From assembly GCA_017525035.1 (NCBI GenBank), contig JAFXTH010000005.1:64025-128024 (forward strand): DNA of 64,000 nucleotides, written 5' to 3'. Source of the stretch: Bacilli bacterium (lineage in GTDB: Bacteria; Bacillota_I; Bacilli_A; RF39; UBA660). Made by a program: the position numbers and the translations under genes. The notes below the pieces were generated by a model. That model was not told the origin of the DNA, did not search any database, and worked only from the letters and a program-made list of their open reading frames with translations. Positions 1 to 9,596 of the stretch are shown in pieces; within the stretch, counting starts at the first letter, position 1; each line of letters starts with the position of its first letter.

Positions 1-188
1 GAACTTGTTTTAGCTATATAAAATCATTTGAATATGTTCTTCAATTATTAGAAAGATATCAAGAAGACCATAGAGCAGTTGATAAAGCAATAGACAAAGT
101 AATTAATGGAGAGTCATCATTTAAAGGTATTGAAAGAACTTTAGATATTGATACAAAAGGTTGCAAGAAAATTTTAAGTAGATTCTAA
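1..188 (+). CDS. 3' end of a tandem-family protein of unknown function (partial)
   Basis: This is the last 61 codons of a gene that begins before the window, read in the frame starting at base 3 and ending with TAA. Its tail (DIDTKGCKKILSRF) matches the end of the next gene (SIETQGCKRLLKQY) and the terminal motif of the three genes after that, so it is the first visible member of a tandem paralogous family. The function is not known. A hairpin terminator overlaps the stop codon, so this copy ends its own transcript. Confidence that it is coding is high because the family motif is conserved. Confidence 0.75.
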   Translation, partial: TCFSYIKSFEYVLQLLERYQEDHRAVDKAIDKVINGESSFKGIERTLDIDTKGCKKILSRF

Positions 189-211
189 AAACTCACATTT
201 GTGAGTTTTTT
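187..211 (+). terminator. Rho-independent terminator
   Basis: AAAACTCAC and GTGAGTTTT pair across a short loop and are followed by a T-run. It overlaps the stop of the partial gene and separates it from the next copy. Confidence 0.75.
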
Positions 212-213
212 CA

Positions 214-242
214 TTGATTTATAAGGAAAAAATCATTATAAT
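214..242 (+). promoter_or_regulatory. Promoter of the four-gene paralog operon
   Basis: TTGATT (214-219) and TATAAT (237-242) are separated by exactly 17 bases. The predicted transcript starts near 249, giving a leader of about 23 bases before the ATG at 272. Confidence 0.6.
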
Positions 243-271
243 AAATAACTAAACATTGTTTGAGGGATTTT

Positions 272-1147
272 ATGGGGAACAGATTTAGTGATGAAAAAAT
301 TGACTATGAATATGCTGTCATGAAATATCATGAAGATATGAAAAATCTTATGTTTGAATATAAGCATGCATATGATCATGATACGATTCAAGCAATTAGA
401 TGTTTAGCAAGAAGATTAGTCAAACTAAATAATCCCCAAATTAAAAGAGACGCCGGTGTTATTGATGAAGAAACATTAAAGTTATTTTTTATAGAATCCT
501 TAAAAATATTAGAAAATAATAGAATAGTAAATTACTATAAAGATGTAATAAGAAGAACAAATATATCAAGAGATTCTAAACTTGATCATGATGATGGCCG
601 TCTTGTTAAAAATGAAGTCTCTAATCATTTTGTTACTTTTGAAGTAATATTACCACTAGGTAGATTAACACTAGAAGACGAAATTATATATGGTCATGAA
701 ATGGGGCATGTTCCTGAAATAGAACATCCACGCAGATCTTTCTTAGAGTATCAAGAAGTATTACCAATATTTCTTGAGTATTTAGTATTTGCAAAAAGAT
801 ACGGCCAGAAATCAGCAATGGATGCTTTCATTGGTGAAAGAATTCCAATGGATATAGAGCATGCAAAAGAAATAAAATACTTTTGTGATATGTCAGAAAG
901 AAATGCTTATATTCAGCAGATATATGCAAGATTGGAAGCAGCAGATTCATACAAATATTTAGAATCAACTGATTTTGTTTTGCAACTAGTAGATATTTTT
1001 GAAAAAGATAAAAGAAAAGTTGCAACAGAAATAAACAAAGTAATTGAAGGTAAATCATTTATTGATGTTGCCAAAGACTTATCAATAGAAACACAAGGAT
1101 GCAAGAGACTGTTAAAACAATACCAGACATACGGAAAGAGGGTTTAA
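272..1147 (+). CDS. Putative HExxH zinc metallopeptidase, lead member of tandem family
   Basis: A 291-residue protein with no signal peptide. It contains HEMGH (H142, E143, H146), the zinc-binding and catalytic motif of zincin peptidases, followed by several glutamates within 30 residues (E149, E151, E159, E162, E169), any of which could be the third zinc ligand as in gluzincins. The C-terminal 60 residues carry the family motif (IETQGCKRLLK). The start is ATG 272 behind a GAGGG ribosome site; a TTG at 260 lies inside that site. It heads an operon with three paralogs, in which the HExxH stretch is replaced by hydrophobic residues. Peptidase activity is inferred from the motif alone; the substrate and the exact peptidase family are unknown. 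Confidence 0.65.
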   Translation: MGNRFSDEKIDYEYAVMKYHEDMKNLMFEYKHAYDHDTIQAIRCLARRLVKLNNPQIKRDAGVIDEETLKLFFIESLKILENNRIVNYYKDVIRRTNISRDSKLDHDDGRLVKNEVSNHFVTFEVILPLGRLTLEDEIIYGHEMGHVPEIEHPRRSFLEYQEVLPIFLEYLVFAKRYGQKSAMDAFIGERIPMDIEHAKEIKYFCDMSERNAYIQQIYARLEAADSYKYLESTDFVLQLVDIFEKDKRKVATEINKVIEGKSFIDVAKDLSIETQGCKRLLKQYQTYGKRV

Positions 1148-1149
1148 AC

Positions 1150-1929
1150 ATGGGTAGAATAATGGGAAGAAGTATGGAGACATACGATTTATCAAAAACA
1201 TTTATGGAAGCACATTTTCCAAAATATAAAAGAGATAAAAGAGTAATTGATCTTGCAGAGCTAGGTAAAAGCCCTAATTTAATTAGAGACTATTTGCCAG
1301 AGCGTGCAGTAGATTTTATAAGAGATCATCAAGTTGTTGTAGTAAGAAACTTTATGATTCCGCATGAATTGACTATATTTCCAGATGATATAGAAAAACA
1401 AGATCCTTATATGATCATTCATAATAAACCACTAGAAGAGCACAAAAGAATTTTAGTATATTTTCTTGGTGGATTATTAAATAGATTACAAGATGATAGA
1501 ATGGATTTAAACGCCTTAAACATTCCATGTCAATATGCATCAGTATTACCAATACTATTTGATTCTTTATACATGAAAGAATCAGGTAGAATGGATGATG
1601 CTAGCCTTAGATTCCTACATGAATTAAGAGGTAATGCCAAAAGATATATAAAAGCATATGAAGATTATAATAAAAGTCCAGAAACAAAAGACATGAGACA
1701 ATTTATTGTCGGTACTTTACTATTTTTAATACAATTTTCATCTATGGATGCAGCACTTCAAATAATGGATAAATTTGGTGATGATAAAGAACAGATGAAA
1801 AAATTGATTGAAGAACTTATTGTTAATGAAAATGGAAATCAAAGAGAAGAGATATTGCTTGATAGAGGAATAGAAACAGTAGGATACAAAGCATTAAGAA
1901 AAGAAATAGAAGGGAAGAAGATAAGATGA
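1150..1929 (+). CDS. Tandem-family paralog lacking the HExxH motif
   Basis: A 259-residue soluble protein of unknown function. It starts MGRIMGRS, matching MSRI.xRS in the next two genes, which supports ATG 1150 (ribosome site AAAGAGGG) over an upstream in-frame ATG at 1099. The segment aligned with HEMGH of the preceding gene reads YFLGG, so the zinc ligands are gone. The helical segment VLPILFDSLYMKE and the C-terminal GIETVGYKALRKEIE are conserved with its neighbours. It begins 2 bases after the stop of the peptidase-like gene and overlaps the next gene by 4 bases, consistent with co-translation. It may be a non-catalytic partner or regulator of the first protein. Confidence 0.7.
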   Translation: MGRIMGRSMETYDLSKTFMEAHFPKYKRDKRVIDLAELGKSPNLIRDYLPERAVDFIRDHQVVVVRNFMIPHELTIFPDDIEKQDPYMIIHNKPLEEHKRILVYFLGGLLNRLQDDRMDLNALNIPCQYASVLPILFDSLYMKESGRMDDASLRFLHELRGNAKRYIKAYEDYNKSPETKDMRQFIVGTLLFLIQFSSMDAALQIMDKFGDDKEQMKKLIEELIVNENGNQREEILLDRGIETVGYKALRKEIEGKKIR

Positions 1930-2771
1930 GTAGAATATATGCAAGAAGTAATGAACTTTTTGATACCTGTAAGACTATCAATGCTATTCATATAAAAAGA
2001 CATAAACCCAATAGAACTATGGTTGATTGGAATGATCTTGAAAATTGCCCTAATCTTATCGAATGTTATTTAAGTAAAGATGCAGTAGATTTATTATCAA
2101 ATCATAAAATAGAAATATTAAAAGATCCTTTTTCATTACATGCAAGAAGATCAAATATTGTTGAAAATGAGTCAACAAGAGTAAGTTTTCCAACATTGTT
2201 TTTTGCAAGGGAAGAATTCAAAAGAGAACTTGTATTCCTTTTAGGACTTATTTTAGGACTACAAAACATTGATAAAGAAAGAGAAGATTTTTCATATGAT
2301 ATTCAAGATGAATATAGAGATGTATTACCTTTATTACTTGAATATTTATATATGAAAGATTCCAGTCAAGAAGATAAATATTCGCTTAAAAAACTATGGG
2401 AAATAAAAACATGGGTTAAAGATTATATTAAAAATGTGGCTGAATATAGAAAAAGAGTAGAAGCAGGTGAAACTTTATTAAGAACTGGAGTATACTTAAC
2501 ATCAGATGGTTTTGAAGGAACACTTGCCTATAGAGATGAAAATATTGAAAATATTGAGAACTTAACGCAACATGTTATAACTCCATTTTCATCTATGGAT
2601 GCGACACTTAAAATAATAGACATGAATTTATCACAAGATGAAGTAAAAGCTCTTTTAGATAAACTATATAAAAATGAATGTGATGATAGAGCAAGAGTAA
2701 TGGAATCATATGGTATTAAACAAGACGGATATAAAAGATTAATTAAAGAATTTGAACAACATAAGAGGTAA
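1926..2771 (+). CDS. Tandem-family paralog lacking the HExxH motif
   Basis: A 281-residue protein of unknown function starting MSRIYARS at an ATG that overlaps the preceding stop (ATGA). It shares with its neighbours the central VLPLLLEYLYMKD helix, the SSMDATLKIID segment and the terminal GIKQDGYKRLIKEFE motif. The HExxH position reads FLLGL. Compared with the preceding copy it has an insertion of roughly 20 residues before the SSMDA segment. No membrane segment or signal peptide is seen. Confidence 0.7.
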   Translation: MSRIYARSNELFDTCKTINAIHIKRHKPNRTMVDWNDLENCPNLIECYLSKDAVDLLSNHKIEILKDPFSLHARRSNIVENESTRVSFPTLFFAREEFKRELVFLLGLILGLQNIDKEREDFSYDIQDEYRDVLPLLLEYLYMKDSSQEDKYSLKKLWEIKTWVKDYIKNVAEYRKRVEAGETLLRTGVYLTSDGFEGTLAYRDENIENIENLTQHVITPFSSMDATLKIIDMNLSQDEVKALLDKLYKNECDDRARVMESYGIKQDGYKRLIKEFEQHKR

Positions 2772-2773
2772 AT

Positions 2774-3628
2774 ATGAGCAGAATATTAGGGAGAAGTTAC
2801 GATGTATATTTAGCATCAAAAGAGTTAAGAGAAGCAAGAATAAAAAAATATAAAGATGACTATACAAGAACAATATGGGAAAGCGTTATTAGCTCTCCAG
2901 AAAAATATAAAATATATTTACCACAATCAGCATTAGAATTCTTAGATAGTAAACCAATAAAAATAAGAAGAGATCCTTTTTTGGTTTATACAGAGATGCA
3001 AATACCTGATACTGATAATCAAGATAGATATATAATGTTTCCTTCTTTTGTTGCAGTAGAAAACTTTAAAACAGAATATGCTTACTATATTGGAATGCTT
3101 CTTTCTTATTATCATACTGATAATGAAGAGGATTTATACACTTTTCCAAAAGAATATAGTGACTTATTGCCAATGTTAATGGTATATCTTCATTTAAAAG
3201 AAAATGGTAAAGAAAAAGAATTTGTTAAGAAGTATTTATCAATATTAAGTAATTATGTTGGTACTTATATAACTGATTATGAAGCTTATGATAGTTTTGA
3301 AGAGTTTTATAGTGGTGCAGTAATTACTGAGATGACTGAAAAAAGATATGAAGACTTAAATGAAACAAGGCAAGAAAATGAAGAGAAAATGGTAAGTGCT
3401 TTTGGAGAAACAATAATACAATTATCAGCACTTGATGGAGCACTTCAAATAATAGATAGATGCAAAACTAAAGAAGATTTTAAGCAAATGATAGAAAAAT
3501 TATTTATTAATGAACCAAGAGATAGATCAAGCATTCTTCGCAGTGAAGGTATAGAAAGTTTTGGATATAAAAGATTAAGAAAAGAAATAGAAGCATCAAA
3601 AAAACAATTGCAAAATACAACAATTTGA
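2774..3628 (+). CDS. Tandem-family paralog lacking the HExxH motif
   Basis: A 284-residue protein of unknown function, last of the operon, starting MSRILGRS two bases after the preceding stop with AAGAGG as ribosome site. It keeps the family landmarks: LLPMLMVYLHLKE, LSALDGALQIID and the terminal GIESFGYKRLRKEIE, followed by a short extra tail. The HExxH position reads YYIGM. It ends in TGA, showing TGA is a stop here. The promoter of the pheS leader lies inside its last codons (3608-3636). Confidence 0.7.
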   Translation: MSRILGRSYDVYLASKELREARIKKYKDDYTRTIWESVISSPEKYKIYLPQSALEFLDSKPIKIRRDPFLVYTEMQIPDTDNQDRYIMFPSFVAVENFKTEYAYYIGMLLSYYHTDNEEDLYTFPKEYSDLLPMLMVYLHLKENGKEKEFVKKYLSILSNYVGTYITDYEAYDSFEEFYSGAVITEMTEKRYEDLNETRQENEEKMVSAFGETIIQLSALDGALQIIDRCKTKEDFKQMIEKLFINEPRDRSSILRSEGIESFGYKRLRKEIEASKKQLQNTTI

Positions 3629-3639: not shown

Positions 3640-3862
3640 TATAAATATTTGATTGCGATGATTAGGAAGTAGTAGTAAGAGTACTATCTAATAGAGAGCT
3701 AGTGTTAGGTGGAAGACTAGTAAGAAAAGTATTTATGAATTCGTCCTATAGGCATTTATTAATAATAAACGGTTGCACCGTTATAGCAATTGAGTGTATT
3801 TAAAAAATACTAAAATAAGGTGGTACCACGAGTAAAATCGTCCTTAGGTGCTGCCTTTTTTA
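3640..3862 (+). promoter_or_regulatory. T-box riboswitch leader, phenylalanine-responsive
   Basis: The leader contains the T-box core AAGGTGGTACCACG (about 3816-3829), an AGTAGTA element on the 5' side of stem I, a stem-I apical region with GGTGG, and GAATTC holding a TTC (Phe) triplet at 3740-3742 that fits as specifier codon. Downstream, GTGCTGCC leads into a run of Ts (3855-3861), the terminator arm. In this class uncharged tRNA-Phe stabilises the antiterminator and lets transcription reach pheS. The T-box core is clear; the specifier assignment is by position and by the downstream gene. Confidence 0.85.
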
Positions 3863-7356: not shown

Positions 7357-8859
7357 ATGAAATTCATTGAAAGTATTAAAGAAAATAAGATGCAATATAC
7401 GATTACATTTTTATTACTAATTTTTTGTATATTATCTTGCACAAAAATAAATAGAGATAGATATTCTTATGATGAACATGATTATCTTTATGCATATTTC
7501 AATGATGATCATCAAGAAATAATAAGTGCTTCAAACTATACAAAAGATTTTGCAATATTAAAAGTAACAATTCCACAATCTTGGTTTGATGGCAAAAACT
7601 GTAGGGTAGTAGTAAATAGTGACAGTTTTGTTGAATATAACGATTCATATTATTATAAGGAAATAATAAATAAAAATGAAAATGTAAAAGTAGCAGCCTA
7701 CGATTTAGTGTGTCGTGATGACTTCGATGATATTTATTTAGAAACTTACAACTACGACTTGGAAATAGAAGATGCAACGATGGAGTTGGTTGATATAAAA
7801 AATATTGATAATATATTTGATATAATTGAAAAACCAACAACAACCACATTAGAAAGAGGATATGACGTTAATTACGAAATCAAAAACATCGCCAAAGAAT
7901 ACAATGATGGTAGAAAACCATATAATATAAAAAGCATTTCCGTTATAGACATAACAAACAAGAAACCTAACGTTAAATGTAGCATTAATGTAGCAGAAGA
8001 TTATTTACCAGTATACTTGTGTTATGACAAAGATGAGCAAATAATGTATATGTATACAGAAGCAGAAAAAATTTATTTAAACAAATATAGCAATTCATTG
8101 TTTGATGATTTAAACACTCTTACTAAAATAAAAGGTTTTGATAAATTAGATTTTTCAAACGTAGAAAATATGTCATATATGTTTGCAAACACAGCAATTG
8201 AATCATTAGATTTATCTAACTTAGATTTGACTAATGTAGGAAAAGTAGATGGTTTATTTTACAATACTACAATCGATACATTAAAACTAGGAAATCTTCA
8301 ATTGCCTAATGTTATATCTTTTGAAGATATGTTTAATGGAATAAAAACGAAAGTGTTAGATTTAAATAATCTTGATACGAAAAATGTAATAATAATGGCA
8401 AAGATGTTTAAAAATGCTGAAATAGAAAAATTAAATATATCAAAACTAAATACTTCTAAAGTGTATGACATGAGAGAAATGTTTTATAACGCTAATATTG
8501 GGGAATTTGACTTATCAAACTTTGATACATCAAGCCTAACTTACGCAGATTATATGTTTAAATTCAGTTATGTAACTAAACTTGACTTAAGTAACTTTAA
8601 ATTTCCTAATTTGAATAATAATAGATTTAAAAATTTATTTTCATACACACATAACTTAAAGCACTTGGATATTTCAAGCCTTGATTATGAAAATTTCGTT
8701 GATAAAGATACGCAAGAACCAAATCATAAAGTTGTTTTAGAGTTCTTTAAAGATATAAATAAAGAAGTAACAATTATAGTCAAAGATGAAAAGATGAAAA
8801 GACTTATATTAAACCATTGTGATAACATAAAAGACAGCAATGTAGTAATTAAAAAGTAA
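7357..8859 (+). CDS. DUF285/BspA-like leucine-rich-repeat surface lipoprotein
   Basis: A 500-residue protein with a hydrophobic N-terminal segment (residues about 13-27) ending in ILSC, a somewhat non-ideal lipobox, so it is probably lipid-anchored outside the membrane. The C-terminal third (about 265-430) consists of repeats of about 25 residues of the type MFxNxxIxxLDLSNLDTxxV, typical of DUF285/BspA-like leucine-rich repeats found in mycoplasmas and gut Firmicutes; these are usually adhesin or surface modules. The middle region is unassigned. The start ATG 7357 follows AGGTGAT. The gene sits between two terminators, so it is probably monocistronic. Ligand unknown. Confidence 0.75.
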   Translation: MKFIESIKENKMQYTITFLLLIFCILSCTKINRDRYSYDEHDYLYAYFNDDHQEIISASNYTKDFAILKVTIPQSWFDGKNCRVVVNSDSFVEYNDSYYYKEIINKNENVKVAAYDLVCRDDFDDIYLETYNYDLEIEDATMELVDIKNIDNIFDIIEKPTTTTLERGYDVNYEIKNIAKEYNDGRKPYNIKSISVIDITNKKPNVKCSINVAEDYLPVYLCYDKDEQIMYMYTEAEKIYLNKYSNSLFDDLNTLTKIKGFDKLDFSNVENMSYMFANTAIESLDLSNLDLTNVGKVDGLFYNTTIDTLKLGNLQLPNVISFEDMFNGIKTKVLDLNNLDTKNVIIMAKMFKNAEIEKLNISKLNTSKVYDMREMFYNANIGEFDLSNFDTSSLTYADYMFKFSYVTKLDLSNFKFPNLNNNRFKNLFSYTHNLKHLDISSLDYENFVDKDTQEPNHKVVLEFFKDINKEVTIIVKDEKMKRLILNHCDNIKDSNVVIKK

Positions 8860-8921: not shown

Positions 8922-9596
8922 ATGAAAGACAAAAAAGAAAGCAAAAAAGCATTCTTTATATTACTTGCAATATCAATAATCGTAGTAGTATCCATTCTCA
9001 TATTTGAGAAAGGATCAAAGGTTCTAAACCAATCAAAATACGAAGACCTTGATAAGATTGTAATTGATTCAGAACTTTCAAATATTGAAGTAAAATTTCT
9101 AGATACTGATTCAGTTAGCATATTAATATATGGTAAAGAAAATGATGAATTATCTGTAAAAGAAGAAGATAAAACACTAACTATTAAAAAGACAAGCACC
9201 AAAGGAGTATGTATATTAAATTGTGATGACAAAATAATACTTTACTTACCTAAAGAGTTTGAGCGTCTTGATATAACTACACAAATGGGTAATATTGATG
9301 CTAAAGAAGTAATAATTAATGATGTTAATATCAAAAGCAAGATAGGTAATGTTAACTTAGGTACTATTAAATCAGCTAATATAGAAACAGAAATTGGAAA
9401 TGTTACAATTGAAAACTTTGAAGGTGAATTTGATTCTTATATAAAAACTGATACGGGAAATGTTACTATTAGAAAAACAAAAAATCTAGATGTTGAAGCA
9501 AAAACTAATTCAGGGAAAGTAAATGTAAAAGAGACAAAAGACAATGATTATGTATTAACTATTGAAACTAACGTAGGAAATATAAAGGTTAAATAA
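8922..9596 (+). CDS. Membrane-anchored DUF4097-type beta-repeat protein
   Basis: A 224-residue protein with one N-terminal transmembrane helix (about residues 10-27) and an outside domain of short beta repeats built on alternating I/V/T residues with a recurring GN[IV] turn (MGNID, IGNVN, IGNVT, TGNVT, VGNIK). This pattern is that of the DUF4097 (YvlB-like) beta-helix family, of unknown biochemical role but often found in envelope-stress or anti-sigma settings. Two cysteines (GVCILNCDD) could form a disulfide. The start follows GGTGAT. It ends one base before the peptidase gene, so the pair is probably one transcript. Confidence 0.7.
   Translation: MKDKKESKKAFFILLAISIIVVVSILIFEKGSKVLNQSKYEDLDKIVIDSELSNIEVKFLDTDSVSILIYGKENDELSVKEEDKTLTIKKTSTKGVCILNCDDKIILYLPKEFERLDITTQMGNIDAKEVIINDVNIKSKIGNVNLGTIKSANIETEIGNVTIENFEGEFDSYIKTDTGNVTIRKTKNLDVEAKTNSGKVNVKETKDNDYVLTIETNVGNIKVK

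Follow-up and report, generated by a model that had tools for sequence, protein, structure and literature searches.

A tandem array of predicted compact M3-like zinc peptidases and retained pseudopeptidase paralogs in a Bacilli bacterium of the RF39 lineage

The mitochondrial processing peptidase (MPP, family M16B) pairs an inactive alpha subunit with an active beta subunit and has bacterial homologs that are two-gene operons, according to a 2024 review (PMC11266112), whose section on other pseudometallopeptidases lists no pseudopeptidase of family M3. No paper joining pseudopeptidases with family M3 was found in the literature library that we searched. Here we describe a 64,000-nucleotide stretch of DNA from a Bacilli bacterium (RF39 lineage, contig JAFXTH010000005.1), hereafter the window, whose first 3,628 positions and the sequence just upstream of them carry six related genes in tandem on the same strand (copies A–F), of which three encode an HExxH motif (live copies) and three do not (dead copies). 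The array is real, conserved and mostly unannotated. It resembles MPP in that a zinc-less paralog with a conserved fold is under selection and is kept beside an active one, and MPP is the described system closest to its proposed manner of working; the fold is unrelated, however, the partnership is proven in MPP whereas it is proposed here, and a live gene here may have as many as four dead copies. The closest enzymes in fold are oligoendopeptidase F (PepF) and Pz-peptidase of family M3 (PDB 2h1j, 2h1n, 3ahm, 3sks), to which a live copy (C) and a dead copy (D) both align best. M3 PepF shares with the live copies an aligned HExxH, an acidic third ligand, a Glu seven residues later and a C-terminal Tyr region, but its first ~190 residues have no counterpart in the array proteins, and the third ligand lies 16 residues past HExxH in the latter versus about 25 or more in M3. 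ACE (family M2), the neurolysin-type M3A enzymes and the M32 carboxypeptidases belong to the same fold group (Z about 11–12.7) but score below PepF and are far larger proteins.

We put forward, at about even odds, that the array combines compact M3-like peptidases with conserved pseudopeptidase paralogs that probably act as partners or peptide binders. The six genes are as follows.

L001:8578-9387, + strand, upstream of the window and preceding copy B: copy A, 269 amino acids, HETGH.
L001:9389-10213, + strand: copy B, 274 amino acids, HEFGH, starting 636 bases upstream of the window and with its 3' end at window positions 1..188.
272..1147, + strand: copy C, predicted compact M3-like zinc peptidase, 291 amino acids, HEMGH, with E162 as candidate third ligand and E169.
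1150..1929, + strand: copy D, pseudopeptidase, 259 amino acids, YFLGG at the HExxH position.
1926..2771, + strand: copy E, pseudopeptidase, 281 amino acids, FLLGL.
2774..3628, + strand: copy F, pseudopeptidase, 284 amino acids, YYIGM.

A preliminary description of the window had recognised the tandem arrangement but counted five genes with one active peptidase. Upstream of base 1, where it had proposed to look for further copies, lie copy A and the start of copy B, which makes six genes and three predicted live peptidases. The placing of HEMGH at H142/E143/H146 was borne out when counted from the ATG at 272; copy D starts at 1150, an upstream ATG at 1099 falling inside the preceding gene. Copies A–C are mutually alike (BLASTP E values of 1e-19 to 1e-38), as are copies D–F (1e-32 to 1e-40), and the two groups, which resemble each other weakly by BLAST, are clearly paralogous by profiles (98.9% probability, E 2e-17) in an alignment that sets HEMGH opposite YFLGG of the first dead copy, as had been proposed. 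The Gly of the motif at this position is invariant in the dead clade. Two further motifs first described as common to the array proved to be divided between the groups: GIExxGYKxLxKExE occurs in its exact form only in the dead copies, whereas the live copies have a related [DS]I[DE]TxxCKxLL, and the VLPxLxxYLxxK attributed to all complete copies is the dead copies' form, while its live counterpart, E-Y-x-E-x-L-P-x-x-x-E-Y, bears the candidate third zinc ligand. The dead copies have conserved termini of their own (MSR[LI]YGR at the N-terminus, GYKxLxKE at the C-terminus), and the live copies have a conserved Tyr and Ser near the C-terminus.

The residues of the putative zinc site are conserved. 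Across many genera, no aligned live member departs from the H, E, H or the downstream E, the candidate third ligand is acidic in 38 of 38 proteins (Glu in 32, Asp in 6) with a Glu seven residues further on, and distant family members retain HExxH...[ED]xx[SP]xxxE. In a composition-preserving shuffle HExxH arises by chance in 1.1% of such proteins; here it is found in three, at aligned positions. No signal peptide was seen by eye in the array proteins, and for that reason all of them are probably cytosolic.

Structures of copies C and D were predicted with AlphaFold2 (for C, predicted local distance difference test score 92.6 and predicted template modelling score 0.91; for D, 91.4 and 0.89, respectively) and compared by Foldseek, with VIA-align re-alignment of Foldseek's top 1000 chains for C. 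By VIA-align, the M3 PepF/Pz-peptidase enzymes ranked first for C (2h1j, Z 15.4, root mean square deviation 4.0, 269 residues), followed by ACE/M2, M3A and M32. The top VIA-align matches of D are the same M3 chains (Z 13.8, 241 residues), and Foldseek also ranked oligoendopeptidase F first for D (E 3e-3), so that the dead copy has kept the fold. In the model of C the HExxH terminates one helix, and E162 and E169 lie at the start of a following helix, which is the gluzincin layout and not the surface-loop position that the preliminary description had named as an outcome speaking against its reading. The model of C aligns to residues ~189–559 of PepF only, and the proteins are half-size (259–295 residues versus about 600). 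A search of a viral structure library gave no match with E below 0.001.

This fold evidence is separate from the sequence evidence for the M3 link. Against an M3 profile made from the PepF proteins of 27 relatives, hhalign gave an alignment of the live set that covers 228 columns (E 3e-6, score 54); the best of 30 shuffles reached 23.5, and neighbouring families with no relation to it scored about 17. In this alignment HExxH falls on HELGH and E162 of C on the EVAST third ligand, and the next Glu is paired too. The Pfam, NCBIfam, PADLOC and PHROGs models gave background matches only for the array members, which have no match to the curated Peptidase M3 model PF01432, and a PDB sequence profile search yielded no more than a weak match to ACE in the HExxH region (E 0.4). 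Of the features of M3, the live copies have HExxH (A, B and C; not D, E and F) and the candidate third-ligand acidic residue with its Glu, and the models of C and D have the M3-type catalytic fold; the array proteins lack a match to the curated model and the full-length architecture of about 550–700 residues with its N-terminal half. The earlier statement that no named family can be recognised stands for sequence models, but in fold, and to a weak extent in sequence, the proteins are M3-like. A distant member from a congener (L168) reaches E 6e-4 against Pfam M3 and 1e-6 against NCBIfam TIGR02289, both below the cut-offs; this locus (L168:1453-5632, G005:C81) has adjacent HEEGH proteins with an M3-like EIESTFFE and connects the compact family with M3 at the sequence level. 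The window's genome (G000) encodes another uncurated M3-like peptidase (L169:4289-5785, G000:C5), of 498 amino acids, with HEFIH and EFPSIYFE and no Pfam or NCBIfam match. Congeners carry an ordinary M3 PepF in addition; such an oligoendopeptidase was found in 11 of 11 congeners tested, and the lack of a Pfam M3 match in G000 (88% complete) may be an assembly gap. An M48 identity was rejected, with no match in the own genome.

A profile search detected related HExxH proteins in 70 of 288 sampled genomes of the order, or about a quarter. In a sample of the class they occur in 9 of 296 genomes, all within one family except for a single match, which is a true M3 PepF (593 amino acids, E 9e-4) and, like L168, fits the M3 link. 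Members of the dead clade turned up in no genus but that of the window; eight genomes have them next to a live gene, and G004 and G007 have them as well. In a maximum-likelihood tree of 52 proteins, all 23 dead copies, from ten genomes, fall on one branch (support 100/99); the simplest account is a single loss of HExxH within this genus, followed by multiplication of the dead gene. There are up to four dead copies per genome, all with intact reading frames. Between G000 and G010 the amino-acid identity is 46% for A, 43% for B, 61% for C, 73% for D, 56% for E and 70% for F, and the ratios of nonsynonymous to synonymous substitution rates (dN/dS) are 0.49, 0.49, 0.28, 0.17, 0.46 and 0.30 in the same order, against 0.03–0.11 for neighbouring genes, values that are rough since dS is near 1 (near saturation) for several genes. 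The array (0.17–0.49) thus evolves faster than its surroundings, D being its slowest member, and the dead copies are under purifying selection and constrained no less than the live ones. That the zinc site was lost long ago and the genes have nevertheless been kept by selection suggests a genuine function for the dead copies of this gut-type bacterium, possibly as partners of the live one. The picture is of a dead clade that arose once, multiplied and has been selectively kept in roughly ten species, most of which also have a live paralog. Current annotation misses both an uncurated group of half-size M3-like peptidases and its presumed inactive partners.

Several side observations concern the wider family. 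A separate single live paralog (HELTH, HELSH or HELVH; L031, L032, L033, L059, L060) forms its own clade and in G003, G010 and G011 keeps the same position, flanked by a ThiF-like gene and by uppS-cdsA. Three compact live members stand in tandem in a different genus (L172:3851-6621); tandem growth of the family is recurrent. G134, which is from outside the window's genus, has a zinc-less copy adjoining a live one (L174:3310-5049), a separate second loss of HExxH. The live profile gave no match in G008 and G009, and the frr-pheS interval of G008 is without an array. Scanning the genome contigs with a single sequence gave no relatives, and with a profile gave seven loci, none from genomes new to the set; no relatives were found on viral contigs.

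The gene layout couples live and dead copies. Copies C and D are 2 bp apart, D and E overlap by 4 bp (ATGA) and E and F are again 2 bp apart, and in 8 of 8 arrays a live gene stands immediately before the first dead one, at most a few bases away. The direct joining of the HEMGH gene to three dead genes thus holds as first described, and two further elements set C–F apart from A and B.

187..210, + strand: terminator-like stem-loop of 10 pairs followed by a T run, 3' of copy B.
214..242, + strand: promoter-like site TTGATT-17-TATAAT upstream of copy C, a consensus match only.

A similar stem-loop lies in the same position in G010, where the promoter-like sequence is nearly identical, and stem-loops with T runs were read by eye in G001 and G002. 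Promoter-like matches are as common in shuffles as in the real sequence, and the promoter site is thus only a lead. The simplest reading of C–F is a unit that produces one live peptidase in step with its dead paralogs.

In the mechanism that we propose, copies A, B and C would be compact zinc oligopeptidases that have kept only the C-terminal catalytic part of the fold of M3 oligoendopeptidase F, with a zinc site formed by HExxH and the downstream acidic residue; A–C are predicted to bind zinc and cleave peptides. Copies D, E and F would go back to a single ancient gene in which the zinc site disappeared and the fold persisted, and would be retained as working proteins rather than decaying genes. 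We infer a binding role for them, the most likely targets being the live subunit C, produced alongside them, or their fellow dead copies. An M3 enzyme of half the usual length may be unable to close its channel without such partners, and D–F could supply the wall or lid that is absent from the truncated enzyme, in the manner of the inactive alpha subunit of MPP. The fullest form of this idea is a split heteromeric M3-type peptidase, in which dead paralogs of the same message would join a live subunit without the N-terminal wall, rebuild the channel and set substrate choice; we regard it as unlikely in this form.

Several observations weigh against the proposal. Masking HExxH drops the match to the M3 profile to shuffle level, so that the sequence evidence alone is thin and no proof of the M3 link, and Foldseek alone placed no M3 enzyme among its top rows for C, which were noise, only VIA-align giving M3. 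The saturation that makes the dN/dS values rough also counts here. G004 (74% complete) carries two dead copies in its frr-pheS interval, which lies on a single contig, and in G007 (78% complete) a single dead copy closely precedes pheS and follows a likely alaS; in both cases no live relative was found. A live copy may lie elsewhere in these two genomes, both assemblies being under 80% complete. Conversely G164, which belongs to another genus, carries a live gene of the C type but no dead ones. This pattern weakens the partnership and makes an independent binding role of the dead copies a serious rival, which we hold to be possible, if clearly the more tentative reading: D–F would be free-standing peptide-binding or sensor proteins that reuse the old substrate cleft independently of C, their position reflecting tandem duplication only. 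Their own conserved termini and the slowest evolution in the array, that of D, fit this view, as do G004 and G007, but in each genome with both kinds a live gene adjoins the first dead one, and the two exceptions are the incomplete assemblies.

The higher dN/dS of the array relative to its neighbours, its variable copy number and the cargo of the frr-pheS interval, which differs by species and includes DUF7192 and AAA_5 genes in G003, would also fit a rapidly changing module of conflict or defence type at a variable site in the chromosome, with the dead copies as decoys or immunity-like partners; with no PADLOC or PHROGs family above background and viral contigs devoid of relatives, we think this improbable. 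That HExxH is a chance motif in an unrelated helical protein with no peptidase activity might be argued from the absence of a curated family match and from the dependence of the M3 sequence link on HExxH. The conservation of HExxH, the downstream acidic residue and the Glu across many genera, together with an independent structure match in which M3, M2 and M32 enzymes head the list whether the copy is live or dead, makes this very improbable. Decay of D–F as peptidase pseudogenes would account for the missing zinc site, but the frames are intact, ten genomes carry as many as four copies each, the origin is single and ancient, and dN/dS stays well under 1. This leaves decay scarcely credible, and it was rejected on dN/dS and phylogeny.

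The array is flanked by frr and by a pheS-pheT unit with a T-box leader, the neighbouring gene names having been read from the sequences.

3649..3848, + strand: T-box leader of pheS-pheT, the downstream neighbour, outside the array.

Located 3' of pheT are a DUF285 repeat protein (window 7357-8859), with which proteins that adjoin or sit inside the array in G001 and G011 cluster, and a DUF4097 (toastrack) protein (window 8922-9596). The content of the frr-pheS interval differs among congeners (L001, L024-L030, L150, L151), which looks like a variable gene site; the cargo types are peptidase arrays, large surface-type proteins, pilin-like proteins, rubredoxin/ferredoxin-like genes (G008) and DUF7192 with an AAA_5 ATPase (G003). 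Directly 3' of the dead copies in G002 (L026:5050-6300) and G004 (L151:3953-5185) lies a gene for a member of a family of 410–416 amino-acid proteins that has no Pfam match.

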